A stretch of 64,000 bases of DNA from Macrocystis pyrifera (taxonomy: Eukaryota; Sar; Phaeophyceae; Laminariales; Laminariaceae). The notes beneath the pieces are model-generated. The model saw only the letters and a list, made by a program, of their open reading frames with translations. It had not been told where the DNA came from and did no database searches. The translations under genes and the position numbers were made by a program. The stretch is taken from the NCBI GenBank assembly GCA_031763025.1, contig JASSKH010000020.1, forward strand, positions 9,856,528-9,920,527. Reading direction: 5' to 3'. Shown piece after piece: positions 22,150 through 62,097 of this stretch; position 1 is the stretch's first letter, and every line of letters starts with the position of its first letter.

Positions 22150-22400
22150 CCATCCAGTGAACTACTGTGGCCTTGAGTCGATCAGGTAATGGTAGGCGGT
22201 CATCCGCGGCACAGGAGGTGAGTGCGGTGTTGTGGTCGTTGAACTACTTCAGACCGAATGCCTGGAGAAGGGAGTTGCCCGTCGTCGACTCGGCTGTTCG
22301 AATGTTAGAGACTTTCCTCCATGCGGCGCAGAAGAGATCTGCGATTCATCGAATACGCCACGAACCTGCAGTGGCCACCCTGAGCTCGTCATCTGCTCCC
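22150..22400 (+). mobile_element. Possible Ty3/gypsy RNase H fossil
   Basis: The plus-strand frame reads QEVSAVLWSLNYFRPNAWRR, close to the 'E..AVVWAL.HFRPYLWGR' opening of gypsy-type RNase H, then VVDSAVRML in the place of 'VTDH.AL.WL'. No other retroelement domain is firmly recognised nearby and no LTRs were found. If correct, this is an old broken remnant. Confidence 0.4.
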
Positions 22401-24421
22401 GAATACCCTGTCAAAGTTGGCGTGTTCTGCTTTGAGGTGAAATCTTCAGGGAGGCTTTCCGGACGATGCACCTTGTTGTTGAACGTACTGAGGTCCGGAG
22501 GGACTAGCTTCGGAGGATCTTATCCTTCCGGAGCTTGGTGCAGACGAAGAGGTTGCACCGGCAACAGAGAGTGATACAGAAATTAGAGTCAGACTGTATG
22601 TGTACACGTCATGTGTCACCTCTTACGCATGCATACAACCTGTAAAGGCGGTTGAAACCAGTTTATTAACCGCGTTGACTGTCATAACATGCCTGATCAA
22701 TCAACGGCGGTGGTTAAGACGACTGGAATTACGGAAAAATGTGGCATTCTCGGTGTTGCCGAGTTACTATTGCAGCAAGCGTGGACTATCTCCAAGGGCC
22801 ACGAGAAGGTACGAGGGCCCCGTATGTCCACCCTCTGCCATATCAAACTAAGTAACTGACACAGTGCAGAATTCCCGACCGTTAAAGGGAAACCGGGCAA
22901 GAGGTGGAACGCTACCACTGATATACGAATATTCTTATATAGTCAAGCTTGGGTCAGGTGAAGGGGCACAGCTCACGAGGGGTGGTACGTGCAATACCAC
23001 GAAGGTATGCGCCGGCAGGCCCTTGAGGACGAGGACTCCAAGCTAGCTATATCAGAGGCAATGATACCGGAGTTGTTCGCCTTGGTTTACAGCGCATTCG
23101 GTTGTCCAGGCGCGGTACCCACGACGTTGCTGACCCAGGGCAAGTGCAGTTAGCCCACGCTAGCCAACGTAGTGTATGTGCTCTTATGTGAGCATAGGAG
23201 GAACAAATAGATGACCACGTAAGTGACAGTATTGCCCACTAGCCCCCTACAATCGTGGAAGGTCCCTGAGATGTGCATCTAATGCCGTGAACAGGGGCTT
23301 TAAACAGGTATTAGGTTCGAGTATGTGTTTTCTGTGGTGGAATAAGCCAGCACATGCTTTGCTCACATGTCCTGTGCTATCAAAGGAGGCCCTTGCGGTA
23401 AAGCCTCACACTGAGCGATGCGCTTTTCGGAACCGCTATTGGTCCGGGGCGATGCAGGGGGGGAGTTTGCAGACCAGGTGGTGAACCATCGGTGCCAGTG
23501 GCTAGGGTGTTAATATGCTACGGTCCCGTCAATCGCCCCCGAGGGCAGGGAGCTGTCGAAGCGATGGAGGGGGTGGCTTCAGAAAACATTATCGGGACTC
23601 TGCAGGTCTTCGCCTCTTCAATGAAACGAAGAAGTACTCCCCGAGGGATGGATTCGATTCTTCACTCCAGATCCTCGCCCACCATGCGTTCCGTTCACGT
23701 TTGTTGTGCCTGTCACTGACGTGTATCAGGCCTGGGCTAAACGCTTGTCGTGCGTGTCATTGATTATTCGAATGCCTGATATCGATGTTTAACGAACTTA
23801 ACCTGGACGGGTGCTGTACCAAAACCGAGGATGGCGGTGTTTCCGGTGGGCATCAAGACATTCATGAATACTCTGAACTTGGCGATGCCATCGATTCATG
23901 GCTCGTGCACCTGGTCGGCGCATCGGATGTAAGACTTGCCGATGTTCACACTTTGGAGGAAACCTTTGTACATGATATCCGATCGCAAGCCCTCAAGGGA
24001 CGTCACAGACACGTAAATATGCGCATACTTTCTAACTGGCTTGAGGATAATACGAGAGTATCACTCCGCTGCAGCTGCACGTATTGCTGGTTTGAGACAA
24101 GTATGGGAGTAGCCTCCTCGGATGAGGTGAGTGCAGGTTTCAGTCCATTGAAGCTGGATATATTTCACGCCTCGTAAGGACTGCACTACGGTTGAGACTG
24201 CCGTCCTCGCTTGCCGGAGATGAAAACAGGGGAAGAACGAGAAACAACTTCCAGAGCAGCGAGCGAGGTACATCGGCTAGATGCCAAGTTCAGGAGGGAG
24301 CTTCCAGAAATTAGAAGGCGGCAAGCGTTCATCGAAGAGGTATAAGGCGTCAGGTACTAATATCAGCGAGTGGGGATCCAGATGAAAATCGAGATCAGTT
24401 CAATCGTCAAGCGGCAAACCA
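22401..24421 (+). other. Unassigned region with moderate open frames
   Basis: Frames at 23492-23763 and 23785-24177 are open but match no family I know. The second (130 aa) begins MFNELNLDGCCTKTEDGG and contains two Cys clusters. A further charged stretch near 24227-24340 (SEVHRLDAKFRRELPEIRRR) ends at a possible donor, GAG|GTATAA. These could be exons of an unknown gene or remains of a mobile element. Confidence 0.25.
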
Positions 24422-24720: not shown

Positions 24721-25081
24721 TCCGGGGTCGCACTCTTTCAAAATCTGGCAGACCATACCAGACTTGGGGGGTGTTGCGGCAGAGGGACGTGGGGAGCAAC
24801 TAAACGTACGACGAGTGGGGGCATGCAGCCACGAGTCGTTGGGCGCAGAGTAGAGACGGATTGCTGTGTGGGTGTGGCATGGGTGTTTCATTCAGCAGAC
24901 GGTTTTAGCCTGCTGGATGCAAAACGCCTGACGAAGGTGTACAGCGCATGTAGCACGCGGGCCAACACCGAGTGTCTATAGACGCTACATAGGTAAGGAA
25001 GACAATACGTGCAAAACTATAAAGATGGTGGACTAAGTGACTAAATACTGCCTGGAAAAAGGATTAAATGCTAACCAACTG

Positions 25082-25643
25082 TGTTACAGCGGGTGGCGCC
25101 AGGGAGGGAGGTTCACAGCGCTGTGACTGTCGTGACCAGCGCTATGGGGAGGATAATACGGCGCGAGACCACTGTCCTGATCAGGGTCACGCGTCGAGTC
25201 TATTCGATAGACAGAGGGCAAGCTTTGGTTAGCATCCTCTGGGCGGATCTTATAGGGGCAGGGAGGATCCCCGGTGTGGGAACGCCTTCGGTCTCGGGTA
25301 CTGAGCCAGTAACGAGGTTCCGGGACCACCCGGTGTTTACAAAACACCACCAAGTGAAGAAAGAAAGTCAAAGCCAAGTGATTTGTGATACCTGTCCTAT
25401 CGACCCCCAGCCCCTTGGGCCCTGCCTTGCCCGTCATGCCCGTCATCGTGTCTGTGACGCTTCGTTGAGTGTTCGCGCTGACTGCTTGCATCTACTGCAT
25501 TGCATCGATCCACGTTCTGCGTGACCCGATCAATACTGCTTGAAGGCACTTCCTCGAACTCCCAAACACCAGGTGAGCCGGCCTCAGATATCTAACGAGC
25601 GCAGGTCCTTTTTACGATCTGAGAGCTGTACCCTGCTGTAACA
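25082..25643 (+). repeat. 5' LTR of the LARD-like element
   Basis: 562 bp, starting TGTTACAGCGGG and ending CCTGCTGTAACA; the termini form the inverted pair TGTTACAGC / GCTGTAACA. Preceded by ACTG. Confidence 0.88.
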
Positions 25644-25661
25644 TGGTGAACCCAGGGATAT
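25644..25661 (+). promoter_or_regulatory. Primer-binding site
   Basis: TGGTGAACCCAGGGATAT begins directly after the 5' LTR. TGG is the complement of a tRNA CCA end. The reverse complement continues into a TTCGATAT sequence like a tRNA T loop. The tRNA species was not identified. Confidence 0.6.
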
Positions 25662-27633
25662 CGAAGTGCATTGTAGGAGATCGGAGTGTTCGCAAAACGT
25701 GTGCAAGAGATCGGAGCGATTGCAAACTTGTGAAATAATGTCATCGTGTTCTCTGTATAAATCCCACATTTGATCTTGCATAATACTTCACTGCATACCA
25801 GGTACTTGGTATATTCATACATCCACATGTGTTCGTTGTTGCCTGCCTTGTATGAAGGTGATACGTGCAATATGCTGTTGTGTATTCACGCTGCCAATGG
25901 TGCTCTGCTTGTTTGTTTCGTGAGGTTTTGAAGATACTTATCTGGTCAATGCATGCGGGCATACTCGTTGCTTGTGCTGCGTTTGCCTGTTGCTCGTGCT
26001 CGTCTGTTCGCTCGTTGTTCATGATCGCACACTCTTGCATGTTCGTTAATAAATGACTGCATGCTATTGACCACATATTGTCTTCAAAACCGAATGCAAT
26101 CGACGGGTATCGATACAAGCCAAAGGTGCCGTACGTACTAATGCACGCATGCTCTCGTGTACCGTTTGCCTGGTTAGGTGATACCGGAAACTAACAACGT
26201 TGAGCCTTACGCCGTTTGGGCGTGCGTAACCCTATAGAACCATGAACCCCTGGACAACACCGTACATTGTCGGCTGGCAAACATAGAACTTTCAAGAAAA
26301 CCACGGATATTTTTGGTGACTAGTATTCTTGCCGCGATGCTTGTAGACTACATCAGTAGTAATAGACCAATCGTCGTATTATGCACGCCAAATGGAAAGT
26401 CCGATGCACGTTTGACCCTCTTCGGTGTCTCCGGTCGTGCCATTTTCTGTGTTGTATACCAACCGAGCGTTGCGCTCGAGTATCAGGTACAACACCTGGA
26501 GGACTGAAAGCCAAGTACAAGAGGAAAGGACAAAAAAAAACTGGAGCAGCAGATGAAGATCGGCTACGCAAGCCCTCGGGGGGCACGGGTCACACGGGGT
26601 GACATAGTTTCAGCTGGACGATGATGAGCTTGCACACAACGGAGGAAGGTGCGGCTTGCTGTGTCCGGAGGGTTCGGGCTAGATATATCGATGAAGCCCA
26701 ACCTGAGTAGTACCAGGCCAACAGGTATGGAGCGGGTGAAACACAACCGTGGTGATCCTTCTCTTTTTCTGATGTCGTATCCACAGTCGAAAATGCTATA
26801 TTATTCTTGCTGTACGTTTTTCCTCGAGCGTAAAAAAAATCGGGGGGGGGTAGGCTACTGTGTCGCCCTGATTGACTTAGATTTCAAGTCACGCACCAAA
26901 GCTAGAAAACTCGCGCAGCGCATGCCGTAATATGCAGGACCACCAGGGACATGGATCAAGCATGACATAGCGCATACCAGTGACGAGCAGCCCGGTGTGT
27001 TCAGAAAGGCATGGAATCCGAGTAATAAATTGATTGATGTGCTGTATCCATTTAGACTACCATGGAAAGTATTGCTGTGGGCTGTCAATATATGTACGAC
27101 TCAATTAGTCAGCCCAACCTGATCAACCGTCAGTATTTTCGTGGTCACATATCACATGTACTGGTGTTGTTAAAGAATGTCTCACTGCTGGTATCGAAAA
27201 AGCAGTAGTAGGGAGTATTTTTGAATATCATTGCGGAATGAGCGCCTCCCATAGATGGTTCTAAGTGTGAAGCTGGACGTAGTTACAGATGAGCCTACCA
27301 TGCCACGACAACTTGTCTACCGCCGCCCGGGGCAAAGGCACCTCAACTCGGAATTACACAGAAGAGCCGTATCCCCGTCTCTACAATGCTATCAGTAGTC
27401 TAAACACTACGCACGATGCTCAAAAAGATGAAAATAATAGTGCTGACGACCTGCACTGCCGTACACTATTGGTATTAATATCAGTCTTAGTGCATGTAAT
27501 TTGGAAGAAAATACAGGAACCATGCTGCTGGTGTACGCTGTACCTGGAGTTTTTATTTATTTATTTCCCGAACACGGTTGATTTATCGATATACGGGGTT
27601 GGTGAATACTAAACCACAAGCGTACAGGGGGGG

Positions 27634-27930
27634 TGGCTCGCAGTATGCTTTTTACACATACGTACATAAAGGACGTATACAATATATATACCCATAATGC
27701 TAAAACTGTACGGCAAGATACCGAAGGACCCTTTGGCTCGCAGATGGCTCGCAGCACGCTTTTTACACATACGTAATATGTTCATACTAAAACTGCTAGA
27801 TCCCGAGGGACCCTTTGGCTCGCAGTATGCTTTTTGCACAAACGTACATAGAGGACGTATGTGTGTGTATAAAATACATCCATGATACTAAAATTGTATG
27901 GCAAGATCCCGAGGGATCCTTGAGCCTATC
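27634..27930 (+). repeat. Tandem array in the LARD-like element
   Basis: Roughly three units of 70-115 bp, each with GGCTCGCAG, GCTTTTTACACATACGTA and GATCCCGAGGGAYCCTT. Confidence 0.75.
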
Positions 27931-28030
27931 TCTCTTCCTATCTTGACGAGTTATCATGTTGACTCGTTGAAACAGCAGTACCTACACGGCACTATCTGCT
28001 GGATGCACTACACAACACCCGTATGTATAT

Positions 28031-28112
28031 ATCTAGGGTGAAGAATCAGCACGGACACTATTGCTGGATGTCGACGAGTAGAAGAACGGTTTAATGTGAA
28101 GAACACACACAT
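28031..28112 (+). mobile_element. LINE 3' tail fragment
   Basis: CTAGGGTGAAGAATCAGCAC, then GATGTCGACGAGTAGAAG, then TTTAATGTGAAGAACACACA: the conserved LINE 3' end, inserted into the LTR element and ending in a CA-rich tail. Confidence 0.82.
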
Positions 28113-28227
28113 ACACCATATTCACACGGGGCATACTTCAAGCTGGATGAACAGAGTGAAGCTGGGTAGAAGGCGTTGGTCTAACAAACTCAAGACAACA
28201 ACCTGGAGGATGTATATAAATATGTTG

Positions 28228-28500
28228 GTAATACTATTGGTCGTACGGCAAGATCTCCCTCGATCCTTGGGCCTTACGATAGTTGTCCCTTACTACCGCA
28301 GCAAAGCATCAACACCACTGCCTCTCGGCATAAAGTACCGTTGTGAAGCCGTTCTATATGGTATTCATACTACTATAAAGAAATTAACTGTAACAGTTGA
28401 TGATACTATAGGTCGTACGGCAAGATCTCCCTCGATCCTGAGCCCTAAAATAATGTCCCATACTGCTGCCGCAGCAAAGTATCAACACTGCTGCCTCCCG
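28228..28500 (+). repeat. ~172-bp tandem pair
   Basis: Units starting ATACTATTGGTCGTACGGC (28228) and ATACTATAGGTCGTACGGC (28400); both continue AAGATCTCCCTCGATCC and later CCGCAGCAAAG. Confidence 0.75.
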
Positions 28501-28644
28501 GCATGAAGTACTGCAGTGAAACCGGTCAGCTGTCCAGTACAGCAATCAGGTTTTTATTCGGGTGAAAACACCGCATGAAAGCTACGTTGAAACTGAGAAC
28601 TATACAACGACTTATATGTTCACAACATAGCTGGTGTTGTGGTC

Positions 28645-28770
28645 TTCTCGTACCCGGTACGTTGGCATTTCACTTGTTCTACCCGTTACGGTATTCTCGT
28701 ACCCGGTACATTGGCAATTCACTTGCTTTGCCCGGTATTCACCGGTACGCTGGCATTTCCCTTGCTTTCT
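28645..28770 (+). repeat. ~45-bp tandem repeat
   Basis: Three units with TCGTACCCGGTACGTTGGCA or close variants, each followed by a CACTTG or CCTTGC word. Confidence 0.7.
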
Positions 28771-29475
28771 TGTTTTACTCATTGCTTTGTCTGCAAATAA
28801 TAATAAATCAGAACGGACACTGGGTTGGACAGATGTATTTGGGTATATAGAACGGTATGGCACACACATAAGGGAAGTACGTACCCCTACGACTCATATC
28901 CGTGGGGTCTCCATACATTCTACATCCAGTAGTATTATAAAATGGTTTTAAGTATGTTGCCTTCATTCATATTCTATAATATACAGCAGTATCTTCAGCA
29001 TACCAAGCGGTATCACACAGCCTCAGTTTACTCTTGGCAGATACCCCGGATAATTCTGTCCACTACGGCGAGGAAGTGAGCGATGAGATAATTACTGCTG
29101 TGCATGAGCTTCGTACGATACTGCTGTTAATGTTGTACTTCTCCGTCCATGGCCAAAATTTCGATTGAAGCATTATTATCTGCTGTAGATTACGTTAATA
29201 ATGTCCGCACAGAAAGACAAAGATTATACCATGGTATTTATTAGGGTTCGACCTTCTATATACGTATACCCGATCGGGGTCGTGCCCTGAAAGAGTTTCG
29301 TTGGTTTTGATATGGCTGGCCTATTATTTTCATCTAAAGGCCCGCGTGGTCTAGAGTATCGCTTCTGTTTTTAGCGTTGAACCATGGAGCTCGAATCTCA
29401 AGATGGATGAGGCGGGGATTCACGCAATATATACAACAAAAAGGTGTGGAATCAACTGCTGAGATCGCCTAACGA

Positions 29476-29748
29476 GTGTGTGTTCTTCACATTAAACCGT
29501 TCTTCTACTCGTCGACATCCAGCAAGCCCAGTGTCCGTGCTGATTCTTCACCCTAGAAAGATACGAGCTCTGTGGTCACAGACTACGACACAGAGATAAC
29601 ACACCGTGATGCATTAATAGCCTACGTAATACCATGCCTTCGCACTAGGTGCGGCCGACACAACATACATACATACGCCAGCAACCAAAATACACCATAA
29701 AGAAAGAGAAGCAACGAAAAAACCAAACCGAAAAAGAACAAGAAAAAA
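29476..29748 (-). mobile_element. LINE 3' UTR, nearly identical to LINE copy 3
   Basis: The reverse complement matches the 3' UTR of LINE copy 3 (about 61760-62033) with only a handful of differences over some 270 bp, including the TCGGCCGCACCTAGTGCG segment and the final ACACACAC. It lies inside the LTR element. Confidence 0.88.
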
Positions 29749-31774
29749 TAGGCGCAACGAAGAACTGAAGTATTTCCACAATAAAACCCAAGGCACGGAC
29801 CACATCGGGGAGAGGAATAAAGAGCTTGCTGTGTGACACCGGATGTCTACACGTAGGAGGGATAGAGAAAAAAGGGCGAAGATAACAAATGGGATGGAAA
29901 TCAATGATATATCTGTATCGTACATACATAACTACGTACGAAAAAAAATATAAGGTACCTGGTGTGAAAAATCAGCAAACGCGTACGAAGAAACACTGCA
30001 TGGTCGGTGGGCGTAGAGGGGTTTCAAGATCGGTTTGGTTTGAAGAATACACTGCCTGTTGTTAGGTCCACCCCTTGCGTGAGTATCATCTGAAGATTGG
30101 GTTGTCCGAGAACGAATCTGGCCAGCAGGTAAACGCTTTAAACTCCGAGAGTGTGGGGTGGTCAAATACATACTACCAGGTATTGTAGTACGCATGTTCT
30201 GACACTATAACAATAGCTCAAAGTCCTAAAATCCCGCCCGTGATCACTAAACAGGCTGTAAAAACCAAAATGCATCGCGACTGGAGAAAACTAACAAGTA
30301 CGAAATAGTGCCGAACCGGTAGGTGAGAGAAACGGTATTAACGACTTGTCCGATATGGTATGTACATCCCGCATCAATTGCAAATGAATAACACCATGAA
30401 CGTGTCCATGCTATTACACGTACACCCAGCATAGAGCATAAAAGCGGGCAAGAACTTTGGACATCGTGCCGAAAGGACCCCGGATCGTCGGCTCCTATCA
30501 TGAGTGCTTTGCCTGCAGGAATTGCGACTGCTCTCCCAGAACTGATGCATGCATCCTAAGCGGTGGATTCGAGATGCACTATTCAAACCAAACTGAGCAG
30601 AGAAAACCTGGCCTTCTCCGATAGTAAAAACCATTCCCAGGACACGTATACTCATTGACCGCCTTACTCACTAGCGCGGTGAACAGACAGTCAATCGATT
30701 TTCACGCTGTTTTAAGTATCTGACACGGTTCCCAATGTCGACTGGGCATCTTAGTCTTCTGAGTACTGCACTACTGTTGCTGTACATGTACCGAAGTTTG
30801 ACCCTAATTCCAAGTGTTTCGTCCGCGCAATGGAAGGGCAGTTCTAAAGGCCACATGCCCAATGCCCAAACGAGAGGTTCCCTGAATGCCAAAAACAAAA
30901 CGCTAACGGCACCCGAGTTTGCGAACGCGAACGTGTAGGTGTTGAGCGTACCACGCATCCCTGTTTTATTTGTCCGTATCCGAGTAGCGGATGATCCGCC
31001 TGATGAGACAGGAATGCTTGAAGAGACACTAAATTGCATGGCACCTAACACCGAGAAACATGTTGGGATCATAATGCTGCTCTCCACGTGACAATCTTTG
31101 ATCGCAACGATGGCACAATAACAGTAGTGACAGTCGAATAAGAGGCAAGTCGACACAGAACCCCTGCTACGAGAAGGGTATAGCTGGATACGCCCAAGCA
31201 TCTATTACGACCGACCAGGCTCCTTAACCCAATACCAGTGGGATACAGACCATCAGTGTTTCGCTATACGTTTTCGTGAGAATACCTAGGCTTTGGGATT
31301 GTTCACGCAGATTCAGTTTATATACAGATACTCGACGTCACGCGTACAGGAGGTACATGAGAAGGCGTATACCAGGTATCATAACCTTTGGATACCCACA
31401 TGTAGGAAGGAACGAGTGCATGTGCAAGTCGCCACACCACGTACAGGTACACATTTGTGAGACGCTAAACCGAGATGGAACGTGACGAGCTTTGGTATGA
31501 TCTGCGCAACCTAACAGGATACTATTTGTCGCTCCAAGCATAGTGGTCGAGGGTTGAAGGAACGAATCGACAGGTGTGATTGGAATGCGAGTAGGTGGTA
31601 GGCAGTTTCTGTTCTGGGGGGGTGTTTGTCTCCACCTTGCTGCAACTACTTCCACAAAAAGCGTTGTACGAGGGGTACGATTTGGAAGTAGGTCTGGACG
31701 AATGCCGTTTTAAGACGCGTGATTGATTTTAGCACGAACAAGTTGCACGAGTGGACAGTGTCCGTGCTGGGGGG
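29749..31774. other. Internal LARD sequence, no gene
   Basis: No recognised coding sequence. The longest frame (30671-31201, minus) has no family resemblance. Confidence 0.5.
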
Positions 31775-32025
31775 GGTGGCGTAAACGTCAGTACCTTCAA
31801 ACACTTTTTAACTCGGAATCAAATATTTACCTTGGCTAGCGCCAGTAAGTCGATGTGGAGTACCTTGAAACGACCTAGGTCACTCGAATAAAGGTGGCGC
31901 AAACGCCAGTAGCTTCAAACACTTACTTAACTCGGAATCAAATATTTACCTTGGCTAGTGCCAGCAAGTCGATGTGGCGTGAACGTAAGTACCTTGAAAC
32001 GACCTAAGTCACTCGAATAATAATT
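31775..32025 (+). repeat. ~118-bp tandem pair
   Basis: Units begin GGTGGCGTAAACGTCAGTA (31775) and GGTGGCGCAAACGCCAGTA (31893). Both share AACTCGGAATCAAATATTTA and GACCTAGGTCACTCGAATA or a close variant. Confidence 0.8.
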
Positions 32026-32539
32026 TTGGCCCGGAGTAGAAAGAACTCATGAACTTCCTACAGCCCGTGATGAACGTATACATAAAACGACCTCCACATT
32101 CGAAGGAAACGTGAAGTTTTGCCACATCGATATAAACAAGTACGTGAATATATTGGAATACTGATCGGTGAACCGTTATAACAGGTTTGACAAGTCAAGC
32201 CCGCAGGTATATATATAGACAGGGGCAAGGTGGACAGCCACCGCAGCGTCTCGGTAGTGTGGCCACGTATAGCCATACGACAAAAGGCTGGCAGAATTAT
32301 CTGAAGTCTCAGTTAAAGGTTAGGTGGTGGGGTAGGACGATGGTAGCTTTCAGTGGAATCTCTGTCTGGCCAAAAGCTTAAACTTGTAGGTTATTGTCAA
32401 AGTGCAGACGTAGGCCTTCGAGAGGAACCCCCACCTCAGATGCAGGTAAGCCAGGAAGAAAAAACATGTTTTTTCGCAGATGAGTACATGCTCCGAGCGT
32501 GTTAGACAGATGTGGCGCAGGCAGTTCCAAGTGAAGACT

Positions 32540-33010
32540 GTACGAGGGTCAGGTCCGCCGCTCTTCTCAGCACCGTCCAAGGTCAGCACCGCGGGAACAA
32601 GAGGCGCTGCAACATTGGGCCGACGGCGATAGACGGGGGAGGAAGACTGAAGAATATCTGGACGAAGGTCAGGACCGCCGTTCTTCTTACCACCGTCCAG
32701 GGGCAACACCGCGGAAAGGAAGGGCGCTGCAACATCGGGCCGACGGCGATGGATGGAGGAGGAAAGCTGAAGAACATCTGGACTAAGGTTAGGACCGCCG
32801 TTCTTCTTACCACCGTCCAAGGGTAACACCGCGGAAAGGAAGGGCGCTGCAACATCGGGCCGACGGCGATGGATGGAAGAGGAATGCTGAAGAACGTCAG
32901 GACGAAGGTCAGGACCGCCGCTCTTCTTACCACCGTCAGATGGCAGCACTAAGGGAAGGAGAGGAGCTGCAACATCGAGCCGACGGCGAGGTGCGGAGGT
33001 GGAAGGCGCA
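32540..33010. repeat. 120-bp tandem array near the 3' end of the LARD-like element
   Basis: Four units spaced exactly 120 bp (GGTCAGGWCCGCCG at 32547, 32667, 32787 and 32907). Because 120 is divisible by three, frames stay open on both strands; the 250-aa minus frame (32350-33102) with 40-residue repeats is therefore probably not a gene. Confidence 0.85.
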
Positions 33011-33160
33011 GGCGCTGCAGCGGTCCATGATCGTAATACCCGCTGGGCACCGTCGCTCATATGCGCCGGTCTGGCGGGGTGTCCGAGGAGGAAAGCGCAC
33101 ACGCTGTCGCCGGGCTAGCACCGGGGCGCCGGCTTTGTGCCGACAATGGTTTTGTGTCGG

Positions 33161-33170
33161 GCAGGGGGGG
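33161..33170 (+). promoter_or_regulatory. Polypurine tract
   Basis: GCAGGGGGGG ends exactly at the 3' LTR start, the expected plus-strand primer position. Confidence 0.8.
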
Positions 33171-33732
33171 TGTTACAGCGGGTGGCGCCAGGGAGGGAGG
33201 TTCATAGCGCTGTGACTGTCGTGACCAGCGCTATGGGGAGGATAATACGGCGCGAGACCACTGTCCTGATCAGGGTCACGCGTCGGGTCTATTCGATAGG
33301 CAGAGGGCAAGCTTTGGTTAGCATCCTCTGGGCGGATCTTATAGGGGCAGGGAGGATCCCCTGTGTGGGAACGCCTTCGGTCTCGGGTACAGAGCCAGTG
33401 ACGAGGTTCCGGGACCACCCGGTGTTTACAAAACACCACCAAGTGAAGAAAGAAAGTCAAAGCCAAGTGATCTGTGATACCTGTCCTATCGACCCCCAGC
33501 CCCTTGGGCCCTGCCTTGCCCGTCATGCCTGTCATCGTGTCTGTGATGCTTCGTAGAGTGTTCACGCTGACTGCTTGCATCTACTGCATTGCATCGATCT
33601 ACGTTCTGCGTGACCCGATCATTACTGCTTGAAGGCACTTCCTCGAACTCCCAAACAACAGGTGAGCCGGACTCAGATATCTAACGAGCGCAGGTCCTTT
33701 TTACGATCTGAGAGCTGTACCCTGCTGTAACA
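33171..33732 (+). repeat. 3' LTR of the LARD-like element
   Basis: 562 bp, the same length as the 5' LTR and about 97% identical by eye, ending GCTGTAACA and followed by ACTG. Confidence 0.88.
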
Positions 33733-36460
33733 ACTGTCCGCTTACATAAATGCATCATTGCGCGTGATGGCGGACATTATCGAGTATCTGCATCGTTCGT
33801 ATTCGGGGTTTTGGTCATCGTTTGCTTTGCTCTCGCCTGCGTAAAATACTGGACCCACTTTGACTGCCGACGGGTCGAACTTACGAATTGAGGAGGCGAG
33901 TCAGGTGAGCGTTGACAGCTCACGCCGGGGTGCCTGCCGTTACATTTCCTCCACCTTCGCGCCCAAGAAAATAAAGTGATGATTTACGACCTCAGGGCGA
34001 GTTTCCCTCCACGCCCATCGTAGAACAGCATGCAGAGCCTACGATTTGGTTCCCCCCTCGATCGCCGTGCTCCGCTGCCCCGACTGCTGCGTCGGGGCGG
34101 CTTCGGACGTGCGTAATGTAGCTTGCTGCTGCTGCTGCTGCTGCTGCTGTGATGGTCTGGTGTTGCTGCTCACGCAGCTCCCCTCGTGGAGTAGGTCAGC
34201 CTGAGATTCTGAATCGTTGCTGAACCTCGAAGGTATGGTTCTAAATCTTTTAATTTGTTTTCTTATTCTCACTTTTACTTTCCAGCTTCTGGACAAGCCG
34301 TAGTCACAGGTGTCATTCCTTCTGTCCCCCGGTTAGCGCCTTCATTTGTATCGTGCAGTGAGTTCAGATTTCTCGGCGCTTATCGATTATTCATTGATTT
34401 CTGCTAACAATCGGTCTGGCGCTATCGGCTCGTCTAGTTTTTACGCAATAAAAATCCTCCCCGGTGAGTCCCTTCATTTTGTCCCACAGCGGGAACACTC
34501 GTCGAGTATTCATTTAAATTTGCTAACCCATGCTCTCACGCTTTCGGCTCGCATAGTTCTGTCAATAGAAAACGTCCCCACGAGCACGAGCACCCACTCG
34601 GTGAGACTCGAGCCTACAACTTGACCTTAGTTTGGACGACATTTACTCACTACAAAGTAACTCCATGGGGGACGCCATTTCGCCTTCTCTCGTCGCACCC
34701 CATCGTGCTCCCCTGCCTCGGCTGCTGTGCCTAGAGCGGCCTCGGGCGAGCTTAATGTGCTACTGCTGCTGCTGCCACTGCCGCTGTTCTGCTGCTGCTG
34801 CTACTCTGCTGCTACTACGTGCAGCTGCTGTGTTGTGTGGCTGTTGCTGTTGCTGCTCACGCAGTCCGCCTCACGGAGTAGGTCGGCCTGAGATAAACTA
34901 GGAAGCCTTTCCTCCTCGTGCGCCACCGGGCTTCCCTTCCCTGACTATTGTGCCAGGGGCAGCCTCGGGCGTGCATGATGTGATACTACGGCTGCTCCTG
35001 CCGCTGTTCTGCCGCTGTTCTGCCGCTGCTCTGGTGCTGCTGCTAAGTATGTGTTACTGCTGTGCTGTTCTGATGCTACTCTTGCTATGTCTGCGATAGG
35101 TTTTTGCTGTTGACCCCCGTGAGCATGGTTCTTATGCAACTCAACCCCTCTCGGTGATGTGTCTCCGCATCGTAAGCTGAAAGGCGGATCTATCTGCTTC
35201 GGAAGCTGTACAAGTGCCGTCTCGCAATTAACATTTGTTTGCCGTCTCGGCGAAGGTCTCGTGCCAGCGTAGAGTTTCTACTTCACGTACCTGTGCGGTA
35301 TACTACCGCTGCTTGCTGCTGCTGAGTTTGCTGCACCGACGTAATCGCCAGCGCTTCGTACTGTCGATTAGCTCGATCGACTGCTGCTCAACTAACTGTT
35401 TTGTGTCTATCTGCGTATGAAGTACTAGGTATACAGTACGGAAGACGAGCGTCTCGTGCGTAGCACTTTGTGGTACTGCTTTCTGTGATGTACGAACGTT
35501 TATGTGTTGTTCCGGACGGTGGATGACAAAGTTCATTTTTCGTAGGTTTGCAGTGTTATTTTTCTTCACTCAAATGTTCCTTTGATAATCCACACCTTGA
35601 CAATACCGCCGCACTAACGGTCTCGAGTTGCATACCGGTTCGACTTCAGCCAATACGGGCTATGCACCGAGCCGGCGGCGGGCGCCAGCACGACACGGTG
35701 AAGCCCCCCTTGTATACGTATATGTGTGCCTGTCAAATATTCGTACTTTAGCCAAATTTTCTCTTCGCACGAGCACTTGTCGGCAAATGCTAAACACTCG
35801 GACACGGGAACCCCGCCCGGACACAATGGTCGAGGTCTCGGCGCGATCCGTGCACTCTGAAGCGCGAGGCGGGCGCTCGAAAGTCTTTTTCGGCGGGAGT
35901 TGATGAGACAATTCCCCTGGTTTCAGTACGAGAGGCCTTTGATTTTGTACATACGTACGTACGTACGGATAGAATGGTGTCTGCTTTCTTCCATGCGCTC
36001 TCGTGGACTGTGAGCACACAGTCCGGACACATACCAGGTACACAACAAGCAACACGTACAGATCCCATCGTTACAACGCTGCCGCCCACACGCCGTGCGT
36101 GTGCGACACACCCATATGCGCGGCATTGCTGTGGCTGGTAGTGGTTATCGTAGCATGCCCTCCGTGTTCCACCGTCTGCCTTGCCAGGTACCATATTTTT
36201 TTTCTTACGTATATACACAGGCTGACGTACCTATATCATTATAACCTCTCTCTCTGCTGCTTCTTCTGCGTATTGCTGTGTGTGATCCAACATTGTCACT
36301 GCTCCAGCTGTGCTCAGCACAGTGCGCCGACAGCAGCTGAAGGCAGCGTGCTCTGCGCATATGGCAGATCCGCGCTGTACTCAAGGTACTTCAGTAGTGT
36401 TTGTTGTTGTCATCTCAGCATTGGCTTATCCACGTATTTGCTGCTGCAGTGTGTGAGGTT
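33733..36460. repeat. CTG-rich diverged repeats, no clear gene
   Basis: A block with a CTG run (34125-34149), CACGCAGCTCCCCTCG and GAGTAGGTCAGCCTGAGA is echoed in diverged form at 34650-34895 and, more weakly, 34905-35105. In the minus frame 34039-34296 the run would be polyglutamine. From 35.1 to 36.4 kb no gene is recognised; the Cys-rich plus frame at 36003-36572 looks like chance. Confidence 0.5.
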
Positions 36461-39216: not shown

Positions 39217-42200
39217 ATTCCCCCTGCTCGTTGCACAGTCATGGTTATCTACCTACATTCATAACTAAAAAAAAACAAAAGTCCTAAAAACCAAGCAAAA
39301 CCTGAAGGAAAAAAAACCTGAATACAAAAAGAACAGTTGAACTAAAATCTCATATAGTCAAAATTCAGTTGATCTAAAACTCAGCTAGCCAAAAATCAGT
39401 GTCGAAAGGTCAAAAACCGACAAAACCAACAACCCGTGCCAAAAAGTAAACACAAAACCCATCAAACAAAAACTCCGAAGGACAAAAAATCACCCAAAAA
39501 TTAAAACTTAGTCCCTGTGTCACATTCAGCTTTCCAGCAGGAAGATCACCATAAATTCGTCGCAAGGCTACGATGAAACTCGAAAGACTCCCGCGATATC
39601 GCTTTGGTCAGGAAATCCGCACGCTGAAAAGGGGATGGTACGTGGATAATCGGTACCTCTTTTCTCCCACTAGTTCCCTGAGGAAGTGGTGTCGCACGTC
39701 AATGTGCTTGGAGTTGGAGATAGTAATGGGGATCTGCGCAAACTGCAGCGCACCCTGATTATCCTCGAACAACGGTATGCAGGGCATTCCCACCTCAGGC
39801 AACATGAAACGCCAAACCTGCCTCAAAAACAACACTTCCTTGATCACGTCAGCAAGCGCCACGTAATCTGCCTCCGTAGTGGAGAGTGTGACGCACTTCT
39901 GAGTCCTAGAAAACGAAGGCACGTAGGCACCCCCGCACACATCACCAATCCCCCTGAAACTGACCTTCTGTCAGCCGCATTGCTTGCGTAGTCCGCGTCA
40001 GCAAACACCTGCAAGCTCAGTCCCCCTATTGTACCTCTCTGAAGAGTAATGCCGAAGGAACTAGTCCGTCTCACATACCCTAAAATACCAAGTGCTGCCC
40101 TCCAGTGCACTAACTTTGGTGCAGTGCAGTACCTTGCTGATGCCGTTTCCTTGCTAGTGCTCTTACGGCATTGGAGATGTCTGGTCGAGTCTGGGTTGAT
40201 AGCCACATAAGTGAGCATACCAACTCGCCAAACGACCAGTCTCCCCGTGCTTCATTCTTGTCGAATTCCGCAAGTTTCGTGCCAACAGGAAGCGGAACAC
40301 TCTTACCAAACTCTACCCCGTACTCATCCACCTATTGTTCAGCGAATGTCTGCTGTGAAATCTTGAGCACCCCCTTCTCCCAATCCCTCTCGTAAAAACA
40401 CCCCGAATACCAACGTAATTCTCCCAGGTTCTTACCCGGAACCATTTGGTCCAGGTCCCTGCCAAACTGGTCACACCTTGCCCTCTCCCGAACCGCAAAA
40501 ATATCATCCACATGCACTACTATAGTCATCACTACTCTCCCCTCATCCATCAAAACGAAACACGCATGCATCTTCCAGGCACTGTGCAAACCCTAGTAAG
40601 ATGTGCATGCCATTGCCTTGAAGCCTGCTTCAAACCGTGCAAACTCTTGTTCAGTTTTACTATTTTCCCCGAGAGTCCACCGCAACCCTGAGGCAAACAC
40701 ATGAGTACGTTTTCCTCTAGGTCAGATAGCTCGAAAGCCTGCTCAGTGTCAAAATGGCACAAGTCAAGATCCAGTTCGCACGCCATCGCTGTCAACAACC
40801 GAACACTCAAAACAGCAACAGTAGGCGCAAACAACTCCCCGAAATCAATGTTAGCTCTCTGCTCATTACCCCGCGCTACTAGTCTCGCCTTAGTTTTTGT
40901 GGGCCAACCGTACTCATCAGCCTTCCAGTCAAACACCCACATTACATTGATGTAGTTGTCCACTGGTTGCTATACTGTCTCAAACGTCCCCGCATCCAGC
41001 AATCCGTAAACCTCCCCACCCGTCGAGTCCTCCCAAAGATGAGCGTACTCCGACCGCCTGGCCTCCTTGTGGCTCCGTGGGACCTTAAGGTCAGAGGCGT
41101 AGCATTGCGGCAAATCCAGGAGCTTGTAGGGCGGCCGCTGGTTCCTCAGGGTGTTGTCGATGTCCTCCCGAGTGGCAAGCCGTGTCGCGAACGCACACGG
41201 TATCCCCCCGGGCCCCCCTGTTGGTGATATTTCCTGGCGGTTTCCACTCGCCGGCTCCCTGCGGCGACTTGCGTCGACGGCCTCCCGTGTATCGAACATC
41301 GACAACAGCGCCGTCTTGTCCATCATCGACAGACGTCCGACACTATGGTTGAGGCCTTGGTCGCGGCTTACTGGCGACGGCGGGGGCGGCTCCTCTGGAG
41401 TTGCTGAGCGCTGAACGTCCGGTGTGGCGGAGAACTGAACCGTCTTCGAACGGGTACGGCCGGGTATCCGGTGCGGCCCCGGCGGCGGTGGCTGAGCGGC
41501 GGCGGCGGCGGCGACTGAAGCGGCCGTTGCGACGACTGAAGCGGCGGTTGCGGCGACTGAAGCGACCATGGCGGCGACTGAAGCGGCGGTGGCGGCGACT
41601 GAAGCGACGGTTGCGACGACTGGAGCGGCTGTGACAGAGACTGAAGCGGCGGTGGCTCGTACGTATTTCAAAACCGGTGTTGCCGGCGCGGCGGCGTACC
41701 CTGAACCCCTCGCGTCCAGCGGCGCCGGCACGGGCATGATGGACGCACGCGGGACCGTCCACGCCACGTCGCTGGTGTAGCAGATGCCGCCTCTCGAGGC
41801 CTTGATGACCTTCACAGCGGACGACGGATAGTTGTACTCGTTGTGCAGGAAGTGGCATGGTACCGCCTGGACGTCTGATTTAGGCCTACGGTCGACTCGC
41901 ATCATACCTGCTTAGAAAAACGGCACCACTTACAGATCCGCCAGTCGCGAGTAGAATACCTCGTATGGTGACCGCCACCCGGTGTTGGCCTTGGTCGTGG
42001 ACCGGTTGAAACAGTCGGCGGCCCAAAGGAAAGCTTCCAGCCACAGACGGTTGCTATCGGCCCCGACATGGGAAATCCGGGCGAGGTCGACGCTCGGAAA
42101 TAGCCGTCGAATCTCGCGGCGAGCCGCATGACCACACTTCATGGCCCGTCAGATCGCGCTCTCGACAACGGCGTTCTGCTGCGGCTTGGCTGGGGCCGTG

Positions 42201-43563
42201 TACTCACGTCGAAGCCCGGCAGCATCGGTGAGCTCGATGAAGCTGCGGTCGGTGAACTCCCCACCGTTGTCCGTGCGAATGCAGAGTGGTCGCCCCATGT
42301 CGTTGATGTCGGCGAGGAACTTCTGCACGTACGCGGCGGTGTCCGGCTTGGTCTTCATCCCGTACGGCCGCATCCACCGCGAAGCGCTGTCGACGAACAT
42401 GATCAGATAATGAGACCCGTACATGGGCGCCTCGTACGGGCCGGCCAGGTCGATGTGCACCGTCTCCATAGACCTCCTTGCGCGAGATGTCGTCCTCCGC
42501 GGTACTCCCGCCCGCATGCCCTTCGCTTCCAAACATCCACCTCACGGTTGCAGCATTCCCGTGAGGGTGATACCGTGCTGCCCAGCCGTCTCCCTCAACA
42601 GACGTTCGTTCAGTTGGCCGGAGGAGACGTGAAAGGGGTTAATATCAATAGACCTGCCACGTTTCCCAACAGTGAATGGACGCCTACCCGGAGTAAGTAC
42701 AGGTGCAGCAGTCATGCCTACGTGCCTAACATCAACGTCCGTCCGATCCGACTCTGTAAGGGCTTGAACGGCGGCCTCATGAAAAATATCGTAGGACACA
42801 GTGTCATCCTGACCCTGTCCATGAGCCGAGTATCGGTGAACACGCTCATGTCTGGCTCCTGCATCCCGGGAGCGGCGACCAGGAGTCTAGTCCTCATCAC
42901 GCGATCCTCAATTCTTACGGCCGATCCTAGATCTGCTTCGCCAGGAGCCGGGGGGGGTAAACAAGAAGCCATAGGCACTGCACCGCTGTCGGTGGGCTAC
43001 AAACTTGAATCCTGAGGTACTACGCCGTTAAAGGCGGGCGGGAAACCATCATGCGCAGTCACTACCCCTTCCACACTATGGTGGGACAGGGGGTGGGAGT
43101 CAGACGCCGAGAGTCCTGCCCTATCTACGTTAAAGAGGGGCGGGGGGGGGCAAGGGGGGAGCAAGTGAGACACCAGATGCTTAAGTATACCCGGGCTTAC
43201 CAAGCGAGGGGCCTGAAACACCAGACATGGCAGATACGGCAATAAGTCCTGCAGTGGGGTTCAAGTCTGTCAACTCCATGCGAGTTGCGCACAAACGTGT
43301 TCCGACCGAATCACGGAGGAAGGTCAGACGGTTATCAAACAAGTGCACACCATCCTCGTCCATGATGATTCTCTGCCGGCCCTGGGCCTCGTGTAGGGAA
43401 ACAAGGTTGTACTGGATACCCTCTGTCCAACACACTCTCGTCAACTTCACATTAAAGTCCGTCTTCAAGTGCAACTTCAGGTTGAGGCCATCTATTCCTA
43501 GCGCATTCATCTTCTTCCCATCACCAATCAGAACCTTATCCTGCCCAGGGGGAATCTTCACCA
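39217..43563 (-). mobile_element. Ty1/copia fossil, minus-strand part
   Basis: Minus-strand order from high to low: protease/pre-integrase region (43563-42542), integrase core with HIDLAGPY and RTDNGGEF (42532-42149), linker (41905-40970), reverse transcriptase with GVSVRLL-like and LHGLKQ motifs and a VDD box (40963-40332), and RNase H with STTEADY and HIDVRHH (39940-39540). A purine tract at 39218-39229 is followed by TGTGGGA, a possible LTR start; its far end was not found. The copy is broken by several interruptions. Moderate age. Confidence 0.85.
41513..41659 (-). repeat. 21-bp minisatellite inside copia linker
   Basis: Seven units of 21 bp beginning GACTGAAGCGG on the plus strand, at 41513, 41534 and so on to 41639. 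On the minus strand they give an Ala/Val/Thr/Ser heptapeptide repeat between integrase and reverse transcriptase. Confidence 0.9.
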
Positions 43564-45761
43564 ATTCGTACCAGAAATATCAGCACCAGTACGCCAACGA
43601 TCGGGGAGGACGCGGTTGGAGCGGAGCGTCACAGCAGTTGGGCACTGGAGGCAGAGGACCTGGCGTCAGGGTCGACATAGGAATATATGGGGGCGGTCGT
43701 GCGCAAACAGCTGGGGGTAGGGGGAGAGGTTTGCCTTCGAACCCCGCTCCACCTGGTGGCTACGACTATTCCCGGCACCCCCGTCTAACCGGAAATCAGC
43801 CCCTGGTGCAGGGGGCTGATCCCATGAGTCGGAAGCAGCCGTGGGCGCACTCATACGGTCAAGCAAATATCACCGCCGCCGCCGCCGCCACTGCCGCCGT
43901 CGCCACCGCCTACGACGATTCCCCGTATGCTCATGATGCTGACGCTGCCGCCACTGCCGGGGACGGCAGCTACTACGACGACGACCACGGGCCCTACTAC
44001 GAGGAAGAGCCTTCGAAGCAGCACCAGCAAGCGCCTTCGCAGCTGTACCAGCCTTCGCAGCAGTACCAACCACCGCCTTCGCAGCAGTGCCAACCTCCGC
44101 CTTCCCAGCAGTACCAACCACCGCCACTATCGCCACAGCATCCTCAGCAACCTCCCAGCCATGTCCCGCCCTCTTCCTCGGCCCCTCCTCCCGGAGTATC
44201 TACATCTCCCCCGAGCGCCCTACATCTTCTGATGGCACGTTCAGAGCCCAAAGGCGAGGCGGATTCGAGTGTTGGTAGCGTAGGAGGAGCTGGGATGGCG
44301 CGTGCTTGCCAGACTGGCAATGAGACTGTTGAGGGACGTGGCAGACGTCCACCCGGTAGTGAGATGTGGGTTTCCGACAACGGGGCCACGAACCACGTTA
44401 CCAGTGACTCCCGGTGCACGTACGACCTGGTGAAGATTCCCCCTGGGCAGGATAAGGTTCTGATTGGTGATGGGAAGGAGATGAATGCGCTCGGAATAGG
44501 TGGCCTCAACCTGAAGTTGCACTTGAAGACAGACTTTAATGTGAAGTTGACGAGAGTGTATTGGACAGAGGGTATCCAGTACAACCTTTTTTCCCTACAC
44601 GAGGCCCAGGGCCGGCAGAGAATCATCATGGACGAGGATGGTGTGCACTTGTTTGATAACCGTCTGACCTTCCTCCGTGATTCGGTCGATCACGTTTGTA
44701 CGCAACTCGCATGGAGTTGACAGACTTGAACCCCACTGCAGGACTTATTGCTGTCTCTGCCATGTCTGGTGTTTCAGGCCCCTCGCTTGGTAAGCCCGGG
44801 TATACTTAAGCATCTGGTGTCTCACTTGCTCCCCCCTTGCCCCCCCCGCCCCTCTTTAACGTAGATAGGGCAGGACCCTCGGCGTCTGACTCCCACCCCC
44901 TGTCCCACCATAGTGTGGAAGGGGTAGTGACTGCGCATGATGGTTTCCCGCCCGCCTTTAACGGCGTAGTACCTCAGGATTCAAGTTTGTAGCCCACCGA
45001 CAGCGGTGCAGTGCCTATGGCTTCTTGTTTACCCCCCCCGGCTCCTGGCGAAGCAGATCTAGGATCGGCCGTAAGAATTGAGGATCCCGTGATGAGGACT
45101 AGACTCCTGGTCGCCGCTCCCGGGATGCAGGAGCCAGACATGAGCGTGTTCACCGATACTCGGCTCATGGACAGGGTCAAGATGACACTGTGTTCTACGA
45201 TATTTTTCATGAGGCCGCCGTTCAAGCCCTTACAGAGTCGGATCGGACGGACGTTGATGTTAGGCACGTAGGCATGACTGCTGCACCTGTACTTACTCCG
45301 GGTAGGCGTCCATTCACTGTTGGGAAACGTGGCAGGTCTATTGATATTAACCCCTTTCACGTCTCCTCCGGCCAACTGAACGAACGTCTGTTGAGGGAGA
45401 CGGCTGGGCAGCACGGTATCACCCTCACGGGAGTGCTGCAACCGTGAGGTGGATGTTTGGAAGCGAAGGGCATGCGGGCGGGAGTACCGCGGAGGACGAC
45501 ATCTCGCGCAAGGAGGTCTGTGGAGACGGTGCACATCGACCTGGCCGGCCCGTACGAGGCGCCCATGTACGGGTCTCATTATCTGATCATGTTCGTCGAC
45601 AGCGCTTCGCGGTGGATGCGGCCGTACGGGATGAAGACCAAGCCGGACACCGCCGCGTACGTGCAGAAATTCTTCGCCGACACCAACGACATGGGGCGAC
45701 CACTCTGCATTCGCACGGACAACGGTGGGAAGTTTACCGACCGCAGCTTCATCGAGCTCTA
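43564..45761 (+). mobile_element. Ty1/copia fossil, plus-strand part (inverted duplicate)
   Basis: This carries a Gln/Pro-rich Gag tail (43565-44360), protease with SDNGATNHV (about 44375-44400), the pre-integrase region and part of integrase with IDLAGPYEAP (45457-45761). Segment 44429-45761 is the near-perfect reverse complement of 42236-43563. Integrase stops short and RT and RNase H are absent on this strand. Broken and incomplete. Confidence 0.85.
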
Positions 45762-45911
45762 CTTACGCTAGCGGTATACGTTTCCGGGGAAACCCGACCG
45801 TCCTCGACCGCTACCTTACGCTGGCGTGATCTATATGTCAAGATGGCTCATGCGAGAGGGTGAACGTAGGGATGGACCGCTACTGGACACCGTGCTGAGG
45901 GAGACCCGGTG

Positions 45912-60320: not shown

Positions 60321-62097
60321 CGGGGGGCATAATAAATAGGACCTAGGGCTGTGTCGGGCATGTTGTATGCAGACGACGCAGGAATAGTCTCGAAGTCGGC
60401 GGAAGGCCTTGCAAGAATGATGACAGTCATCGTGACTGTCTGCGAAGCAGTAGGTCTCACGGTATCCGAGAAGAAGACAGAGACGATGCTCCTACGAACA
60501 CCGGATCAGACGTTTACCACCTCACCGCTCGCGATCGAAGCTGCAGGCCGAAAGTATAAACAGACGACCCATTTTTATACCAAGGAGGCATTATCCACGA
60601 GAACGCTGACCTCTCCTTCGAAATCGAGCGACGAATCCGTCTGATGCGGGCATGCCTCAAACGGTATGGTCCGGAACTGTACGATAGGACGAACGCACCG
60701 CTTAGTCTGAAAGTCCGGATGCTTAAGGCCGAGGTGATTGAGACCTTGCTGTACGGTTGCGTGACGTGGACCCTCAATGCGGACCACTTCGCCAAGCTTC
60801 GATCAGCCCACCACGAAGTCCTTCTGCGAGGCATTGGTTTCCAGCGCCGACTACGCACCGACCACACCACCCTCTCGTATGCGAAGGCGCTCAGGATAGC
60901 ACGATGCGAAAGTATCGAAACGACCAACCGTAAACGGCGACTCTTCTTTGCGGGGGCTGTGGTGCGGCAACACGAGGGGCGATTGCCCAGTCGGTTGATG
61001 TTCGGGACGATCGCTGGTGGGGGGAGCCCGAAACCAGGCGGGCAGCCCAAGACTTGGCCTAGGGCCATTGCTGAGGACCTTAGAGTGTTCGAAGCCACCG
61101 AGGGATCAACGGAAGACTCCCCCTTAGTCTTTGGAGTTGGGACCGCACTGTGGCCCACTGCAGCAAAACAGACGGGAAAGTGGTACCGAGGAATCCTCGA
61201 AGCAGCTGAACAGTTCATGGGCAGGTGGCACGACACTGAGGCAAAGCTGAGTAGACAACGCCGTGCATCCGCTGCAGGTAGTGTTAGAGGCAATGGGGGG
61301 AGGGGTAACAGCAGGAGGGGTAGAAGGAACACCGTACAAGTGTATGTGGGCAGGGGGGGGAACAGGAGGGGTAGAAGGGAAACCGCGGTAGAAGAGAGTA
61401 GCAGAGAGACCGCAGATAGGGTAGCAAGGTACCAGGCGGACTAATAGGTTGGACGTTTAATTGCTACTCGTACCGCCAACTGCTGCGGCCGTTCGGTATG
61501 TATTTTGATTTGTTTTCCCTTCTTATCCTTATGAAAGAAGTACTACATAGTGGGTGGGTGACGAGCGTATTTCGGCCCACTCACTATTGCTCTTTTTACT
61601 TAGTTAAGTGTTCACCGGGATGCATAGTCCCCTTTTTCCTTCTCGTATATTTCCCCTTGCACGTCCCTTTTGGCTCATGCTCGGGGTAAGTATGTATGTG
61701 TCTGAGCTTTGGCTTCCAATTTTATTTATTTATTTGGGATTCTTCTCCTTTTCTTTTTCTTTTTCTTGTTCTTTTTCGGTTTGGTTTCTTCGTTGCTTCT
61801 CTTTCTTTATGGTGTATTTTGGTTGCTGGCGTATGTATGTATGTTGTGTCGGCCGCACCTAGTGCGAAGGCATGGTATTTGCGTAGGCTATTAATGCATT
61901 ACGGTGTGTTATCTCTCTGTCGTAGTCTGTGACCACAGAGCTCGTATCTTTCTAGGGTGAAGAATCAGCACGGACACTGGGCTTGCTGGATGTCGACGAG
62001 TAGAAGAACGGTTTAATGTGAAGAACACACACACACACACGGTAGACACAAAAACCTGTATCTTTTGATCAACAATATTTGGTCTTATTTACTATGG
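60321..62097 (+). mobile_element. MITE of the CGGGGG family split by LINE copy 3
   Basis: The left half, CGGGGGGCATAATAAATAGG then ACCTA (60321-60344), follows TA. The right half resumes after the LINE as GGTAGACACAAAAACC ... ACAATATTTGGTCTTATTT, then ACTATGG (62041-62097). The family reads ACCTAC|GGTA across this point, so the join is clean. Confidence 0.82.
60345..62040 (+). mobile_element. APE-type LINE, copy 3 (RT palm to 3' end)
   Basis: 5' truncated inside reverse transcriptase at AVSGMLYADDAGIV, keeping an intact YADD box. Frames 60351-60644 and 60644-61444 overlap. The first runs out of frame near 60578, where copy 2 reads FLYLGGNIHENADLS, so one small frameshift separates them. The C-terminal part has LLYGCVTWTL, RRLFFAGAVV, LMFGTIAGGG and ends RVARYQAD, stop. 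A T/C-rich 3' UTR follows, ending in GAAGAATCAGCACGGACACT ... TTTAATGTGAAGAACACACA. It is the youngest-looking copy; its UTR is almost identical to 29476-29748. Confidence 0.9.

Follow-up and report, generated by a model that had tools for sequence, protein, structure and literature searches.

The element and its ends

The 64,000-nucleotide stretch of giant kelp (Macrocystis pyrifera) DNA analysed here, termed the window (contig JASSKH010000020.1 of assembly GCA_031763025.1), contains at 25082-33732 a terminally complete long terminal repeat (LTR) retrotransposon that encodes no recognisable retroelement protein (Table 1). Here we report that this element is a copy of a large retrotransposon derivative (LARD), and we propose that it belongs to a high-copy non-coding family that is mobilised in trans, most likely by a Ty3/gypsy relative resident in the same genome. 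Taking the sequence evidence together, we place the probability of this reading at about 85%.

The two LTRs of the window copy, which start with TGTTACAG and end with CTGTAACA, agree at 547 of 562 positions, with 15 mismatches and no gaps. A primer binding site (PBS) of TGG type lies directly 3' of the 5' LTR, the G-rich polypurine tract (PPT) GTCGGGCAGGGGGGG adjoins the 3' LTR, and ACTG flanks the element on both sides as a target-site duplication (TSD). A preliminary description, made from the letters of the window alone, had reported LTRs of this length with about 15 differences as well as the primer site, tract and duplication; we recovered the LTRs at the same coordinates and the other signals at the element ends. 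It had also named two unrelated solo LTRs as an outcome that would speak against its proposal. The LTRs instead enclose one shared interior, with the TSD outside them.

Two TG..CA LTRs with a TSD, a tRNA-complementary PBS with a PPT, and an interior longer than 4 kb without gag or pol are characteristic of LARDs, as are many copies with the same interior and an autonomous relative with shared cis signals, both of which are described below. These observations confirm the window element as a protein-less LTR retrotransposon copy of LARD type. The terminal-repeat retrotransposon in miniature (TRIM) class was rejected, as it requires an interior below 4 kb.

Table 1. Features of the LARD copy, numbered from the first base of the window
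Feature	Positions	Strand	
Left target-site duplication ACTG	25078..25081		
5' LTR, 562 bp, TG..CA, 8-bp terminal inverted repeat	25082..25643	+	
PBS, 17/18 nt complementary to kelp tRNA-Trp(CCA) 3' end	25644..25661	+	
Leader common to LARD and coding relative, 75.9% identity	25644..26194	+	
Interior, 7527 bp, no recognisable retroelement protein, common to other copies	25644..33170	+	
Repeat block A, ~100-bp unit, 1-3 units across copies	27634..27921	+	
Repeat block B, two copies 172 bp apart, 1-2 units across copies	28224..28524	+	
Repeat block C, 49-bp unit, 1-2 units across copies	28636..28733	+	
271-bp insert, missing at that position in the other six aligned copies	29479..29749	+	
Repeat block D, 118-bp unit, two units in all seven copies	31775..32020	+	
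Repeat block E, 120-bp tandem array, 3.8 units in window	32538..32989	+	
G-rich PPT region GTCGGGCAGGGGGGG, identical in coding relative	33156..33170	+	
3' LTR, 562 bp	33171..33732	+	
Right target-site duplication ACTG	33733..33736		

Absence of recognisable proteins

Each of the 33 stop-to-stop open reading frames (ORFs) of at least 75 amino acids in the window interior was scanned against Pfam, and none reached the cut-off; the best E-value, 0.008, belonged to Ribonuclease_T2 (16.7 bits vs a cut-off of 26). Seven ORFs from other copies (five from locus L025, two from L013) likewise gave nothing over the Pfam cut-off. In tblastn searches, seven ORFs of the coding relative found nothing better than E = 0.13 in seven LARD copies, and with the same query set the relative's integrase detected a separate gypsy element elsewhere in the window (22950-23705, E = 2e-27). 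The earlier picture of some 7.5 kb of interior lacking a retroelement protein therefore holds, and the pol domain that had been named as evidence against a LARD did not appear over the Pfam cut-off. An Rfam scan of 25000-33800 returned only sub-threshold matches, which we take as chance (SAM, 23.9 vs 44.4 bits; PVT1_3, 19.1 vs 45).

A high-copy family in the giant kelp genome

We searched the M. pyrifera assembly (537,376,219 bases in 223 contigs) with three pieces of the element. The first-look candidate counts are loose, and 40 candidates, the window itself included, were scored per search. For the LTR, the 40 scored of 1357 candidates were all 96-100% identical; for an interior piece, the 40 scored of 555 were 96-100% identical, and for the 5' end of the element, the 40 scored of 1140 were 95-100% identical. 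The exact 17-base junction of LTR end and PBS occurs 114 times in its TGG form and 174 times in its TGA form, and the reversed control gave 0 for both.

Seven two-LTR copies, the window copy and six fetched from the genome, were compared in full in an alignment that includes the LTRs and that also underlies the indel and mosaicism analyses below. All 21 pairs are 94-98% identical at aligned letters, gaps set aside. Flanks and TSDs differ among the seven, with ACTG, GTTC, GTTC, CTAG, CTTT and CACC at the six copies that carry a 4-bp duplication, and the LTR pairs within copies differ at 2 to 15 positions (six copies compared). One of two solo LTRs read has a CTGC duplication. The genome search with the LTR that the preliminary description had suggested as a check thus yielded many copies, seven of them with two LTRs around the same interior, and its proposal of a LARD family is borne out as a high-copy non-coding family in this genome.

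A coding relative with the same ends

A coding relative sharing the LTR had been named as further support. We looked for one by comparing, by eye, 150 scored matches to the integrase domain rve (of 3609 first-look candidates) with 100 listed of the 114 TGG junctions. Among those compared, two rve matches lay within 9 kb downstream of a junction on the same strand. The first (L030, contig C197), with an integrase 8.6 kb downstream, was rejected as a coding copy: its match to the LARD ends about 3.8 kb in, and at this locus an unrelated gypsy element follows a LARD copy. The second (L029/L031, contig C200) carries coding sequence; its LTRs measure 549 and 510 bp, it is flanked by a duplicated GTAC, and its PBS is the same as that of the LARD. 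It contains reverse transcriptase (RVT_1, 3.6e-19), RNase H, the integrase zinc-binding domain H2C2 and rve (5e-12); reverse transcriptase, RNase H and integrase stand in gypsy order, split over several frames in that copy. The relative is a Ty3/gypsy-type element.

Over positions 67-562 its LTR is 93% identical to that of the LARD. The leaders are 75.9% similar across positions 1-551 of the window interior, and the 15 nt directly preceding the 3' LTR are the same in the C200 copy and the window. LTR end, PBS, leader and PPT are thus common to both elements. A search with a piece of the relative's reverse transcriptase gave 105 first-look candidates, of which 40 were scored: besides the query copy, these were 39 further loci at 97-99%. 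By these loose counts (555 vs 105) there are about five LARD interiors per reverse transcriptase of the relative.

We fetched the ends of ten further copies of the relative. LTR end and PBS were present in nine of them, the exception being C196, and the tract before the LTR was present in eight (C201 shows two extra G; the LTR of C196 is cut off by the end of the stretch). In C209 and C199b the LTR start was not recovered with the search string used. The C212 copy has both ends and an AATC duplication, so that both relative copies read at both ends have a 4-bp TSD (GTAC, AATC). Across contigs up to C201, 18 of 22 relative copies have an exact LTR/PBS junction 3.5-6.5 kb upstream of the reverse transcriptase, and the shared end is therefore a trait of the family.

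The primer site

Both families carry two types of PBS, and the leader beyond it is family-specific. The type TGGTGAACCCAGGGAGAT is complementary to the 3' end of tRNA-Trp(CCA) at 18 of 18 positions, and the window PBS departs from it by one mismatch; the type TGATGAACCCAGGCTGAT has three mismatches to tRNA-Trp, one of them in the CCA end. A mixed form, TGATGAACCCAGGCAGAT, occurs in two LARD copies. By exact junction, the 20 LARD copies on contigs up to C201 comprise 8 TGG, 7 TGA and 5 of neither form, and the 22 relative copies comprise 1 TGG, 17 TGA and 4 of neither. Because of the 18-nt match, tRNA-Trp is probably the primer of the LARD.

Candidate tRNA genes were sought with sequence patterns. 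A looser pattern was mostly noise (173 matches vs 2990 reversed), and one requiring a typical Trp anticodon loop found nothing; the kelp tRNA-Trp gene lacks such a loop. The corrected pattern gave 28 matches vs 1 reversed, and no tRNA gene for the second PBS type, TGATGAACCCAGGCTGAT, was among them. ARAGORN identified three of the sites read as tRNA-Trp genes (two in L054, one in L057), and the matches in L052, L053, L058 and L059 proved to be primer sites of LARD-family elements.

Two further loci, L056 and L055, have 39 nt resembling tRNA-Trp (an exact match in L056, with three differences in L055) beside LTR-like ends of other families. A primer site normally spans 18 nt, and the much greater length here would fit copying of the primer tRNA beyond position 58.

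Proposed mobilisation in trans

The cis signals of the LARD are shared with the coding relative, and for this reason we propose that the LARD is mobilised in trans. It would be transcribed from LTR to LTR into an RNA carrying the LTRs, the tRNA-Trp primer site, the leader and the PPT, which the Gag of the relative could package by way of the shared leader. tRNA-Trp would prime reverse transcription by the relative's proteins, and the same proteins would integrate the product with a 4-bp duplication, consistent with the TSDs of six of the seven LARD copies. Template switching between co-packaged RNAs would then give rise to mosaic copies and to changes in the number of repeat units. The Ty3/gypsy relative, rather than another gypsy family, is the best-supported candidate for the helper.

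Several observations weigh against this reading. One two-LTR copy (C219) has no TSD, and the second solo LTR is flanked by a 5-bp CTCTG instead of a 4-bp duplication. The PBS type commonest in the relative (TGA, 17 of its 18 exact TGG or TGA junctions) is not a full match to tRNA-Trp. A tree built from 32 LTRs, without support values, places LARD and relative LTRs in separate clades, as relatives rather than the same LTR; of 33 differences fixed between the families, 19 fall within the first 66 of the 570 alignment columns. In that tree the 5' and 3' LTRs of the C200 relative do not pair with each other, and an alignment of the two shows 7 mismatches and 39 gap columns, for which reasons this copy may be rearranged. 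A search of the first ~257 bases of the leader for a conserved RNA structure found changes on both sides in 5 of 50 predicted pairs, and four of these are plain differences between the families. Finally, L056, apparently of another LTR family, has its 39-nt exact tRNA-Trp complement beside an LTR end.

The last of these points, together with the separate LTR clades, would fit mobilisation by some other gypsy family that also uses tRNA-Trp. We consider this unlikely, as the search described above, in which 150 scored rve matches of 3609 candidates were compared by eye with 100 of the 114 TGG junctions, found no other coding family with a LARD-like LTR, leader and pre-LTR tract.

A more improbable alternative is that the window element is what remains of the autonomous element after decay or internal deletion, its protein-coding sequence having degenerated. 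The common LTR, PBS, leader and PPT would be expected of such a remnant, but no DNA match to the pieces of the relative was seen in the window interior beyond the leader, and the relative's ORFs have no counterpart in the seven LARD copies at the protein level, as given above. Moreover, the same non-coding interior is found in copies with different target duplications, and therefore the non-coding form itself was copied. In the LTR comparison, three polymorphisms are shared between the families. The LARD and its coding relative are best viewed as sister families with common signals and not as the product of a fresh deletion.

That the element encodes a new protein, for example in the 254-amino-acid minus-strand frame at 32353-33114, is very improbable. 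All seven copies have a minus-strand frame of 185-293 amino acids in this region, and ORFs of at least 110 amino acids outnumber those in first-order Markov simulations (11 in the window, LTRs included, vs a mean of 4.6). The longest window frame is nevertheless shorter than the longest among 40 simulations (269 amino acids), and it crosses the 120-bp array, whose unit length is a multiple of three. The homologous region has indels of 1, 2, 2 and 11 bases, in five of the seven copies each antisense frame there is interrupted by one or more stops, and no Pfam family matched the frame over the cut-off. A dN/dS-like ratio of 0.51, from a single pair (14 synonymous and 18 non-synonymous changes), decides nothing. 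On the simulations, the indels and the stops we rejected a hidden minus-strand protein.

An artefact of two unrelated solo LTRs or of segmental duplication has next to no probability and is already refuted for the window copy, which has a TSD, PBS, PPT and shared interior and is joined by six more two-LTR copies with other flanks, even if a diverged sub-lineage (L052, L053, L058 and L059) truly is a segmental duplication.

The LTR of this sub-lineage is about 91% identical, its leader lacks the first 331 bases, and its tRNA-Trp complement is 31 nt long (29 of 31 positions in L058); the sub-lineage's tRNA-like string accounts for 17 occurrences in the tRNA listing of the corrected pattern. Upstream flanks match in all four members checked, and we therefore regard them as one insertion spread by segmental duplication. 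The common flank rules out an amplified leader-less form, and the four loci give no evidence that the leader is dispensable.

Repeat blocks and mosaic copies

The interior had been described as containing at least five unrelated tandem arrays. Repeat blocks were found within 4 bases of all five positions given (at 27634, 28224, 28641, 31775 and 32538), but the last alone is an array with over three copies; blocks A-D are local duplications of two or three copies. In the window, block A has two units at the cut-off used, plus a third partial match. Block E (120 bp x 3.8) is the sole array inside the element reported by Tandem Repeats Finder at its default score; it has 3-4 units over the seven copies, or 2.7-3.8 by that program. 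The statement that arrays make up much of the interior was overstated, since local duplications cover just 1301 of 7527 bases (17%). The suggestion that the interior gains and loses tandem blocks finds support at four of the five blocks, in which unit number varies, but not to block D, which is constant.

Mosaicism between copies and other indels have also shaped the interior. Indels of 40-400 bp recur in some of the copies, and the larger ones each occur in just one copy. The groupings of copies contradict one another from one part of the alignment to the next: neighbouring informative sites (133 in all) have an incompatibility index of 0.148, vs 0.309 for shuffled order, and none of 1000 shuffles of site order was as low. 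Because incompatibility between neighbouring sites lies below that of shuffled order, the copies are mosaics. Template switching between co-packaged RNAs would be the natural cause, and gene conversion may be an alternative source.

A broader possibility, which we raise tentatively and think doubtful, is that the LARD and its helper recombine as a single system, whose sequences preserve a record of how it was primed. The tRNA-matching PBS would be rewritten repeatedly as the primer is copied, TGATGAACCCAGGCTGAT would reflect a second primer, and the mosaics would arise by template switching in shared particles.

The 271-bp insert is a repeat with a second occurrence in the window (61760-62029, 98% identical). 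It ends in an A-rich tail, is partly present in many fetched loci, and looks like a short non-LTR repeat.

Relation to known systems

The LARDs of barley, presented in a 2004 paper, reportedly have LTRs of several kilobases, and that work is said to have described a conserved RNA structure of the template. As defined in PMC9033089, LARDs have an interior above 4 kb and need functions in trans. The kelp family resembles the elements described there in its LTRs, PBS, PPT, TSD, non-coding interior above 4 kb and many copies, and, by our reading, probably in the need for help in trans; it differs in its brown-algal host, its 562-bp LTRs and the local repeat blocks inside.

Rice Dasheng and its putative autonomous partner RIRE2, as presented in PMC5473765, are a comparable non-autonomous/autonomous pair, in which a non-coding family stands beside a coding LTR partner with similar TSDs and is the more numerous of the two. 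Chimeric Dasheng/RIRE2 elements are reported in the same source, whereas in kelp no element joining LARD and relative interiors was seen among the copies examined, and the LTR clades are separate. In Culex, 38 non-coding LTR families bearing tandem repeats are described, with no master copy found (PMC3286476). They share with the kelp family complete ends, a lack of coding sequence and internal tandem repeats, but for the kelp family a coding relative was found.

From a brown-algal genome, TRIMs and LARDs have been reported (PMC3145265); they are likewise non-autonomous LTR elements, the likeness being one of class name and not of compared sequence. The main text of a 2025 paper on transposable elements of Ectocarpus has no word beginning with 'LARD'; it cautions that tandem repeats are mistaken for non-autonomous LTR elements by one pipeline (PMC12477816). 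The warning does not apply to the kelp LARD, because its ends, TSDs and copies were checked. Neither this family and its partner nor such a brown-algal pair was found in the literature examined, most subscription journals being outside its scope. The LARD lifestyle is already known; with the kelp family and its probable helper it is seen in a new host.

In this brown alga a high-copy non-coding LTR family can be paired with one particular coding relative and with the tRNA that probably primes it. The parts that have been kept (pre-LTR tract, PBS) and those that have diverged (leader, LTR clades) suggest which signals mobilisation in trans may need, and, given the mosaic copies and two PBS types, genome sequence can be used to test recombination and priming.

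Other retroelement pieces in the window

Further retroelement fragments lie around the LARD copy. The stretch 22243-23705 is a fragment of a different gypsy-type element, with 36% identity to two ORFs of the coding relative. The stretches 42104-43015 and 44974-45762 have nearly the same translation on opposite strands and, with integrase-like matches at 42161-42466 and 45523-45852, form an inverted pair of retroelement pieces, presumably Copia-like to judge by a motif. Fragments of reverse transcriptase of the long interspersed nuclear element (LINE) type, recognised by eye in the translations, lie at 4520-5551 (minus strand) and 60560-61444 (plus strand) and have related C-terminal sequence.

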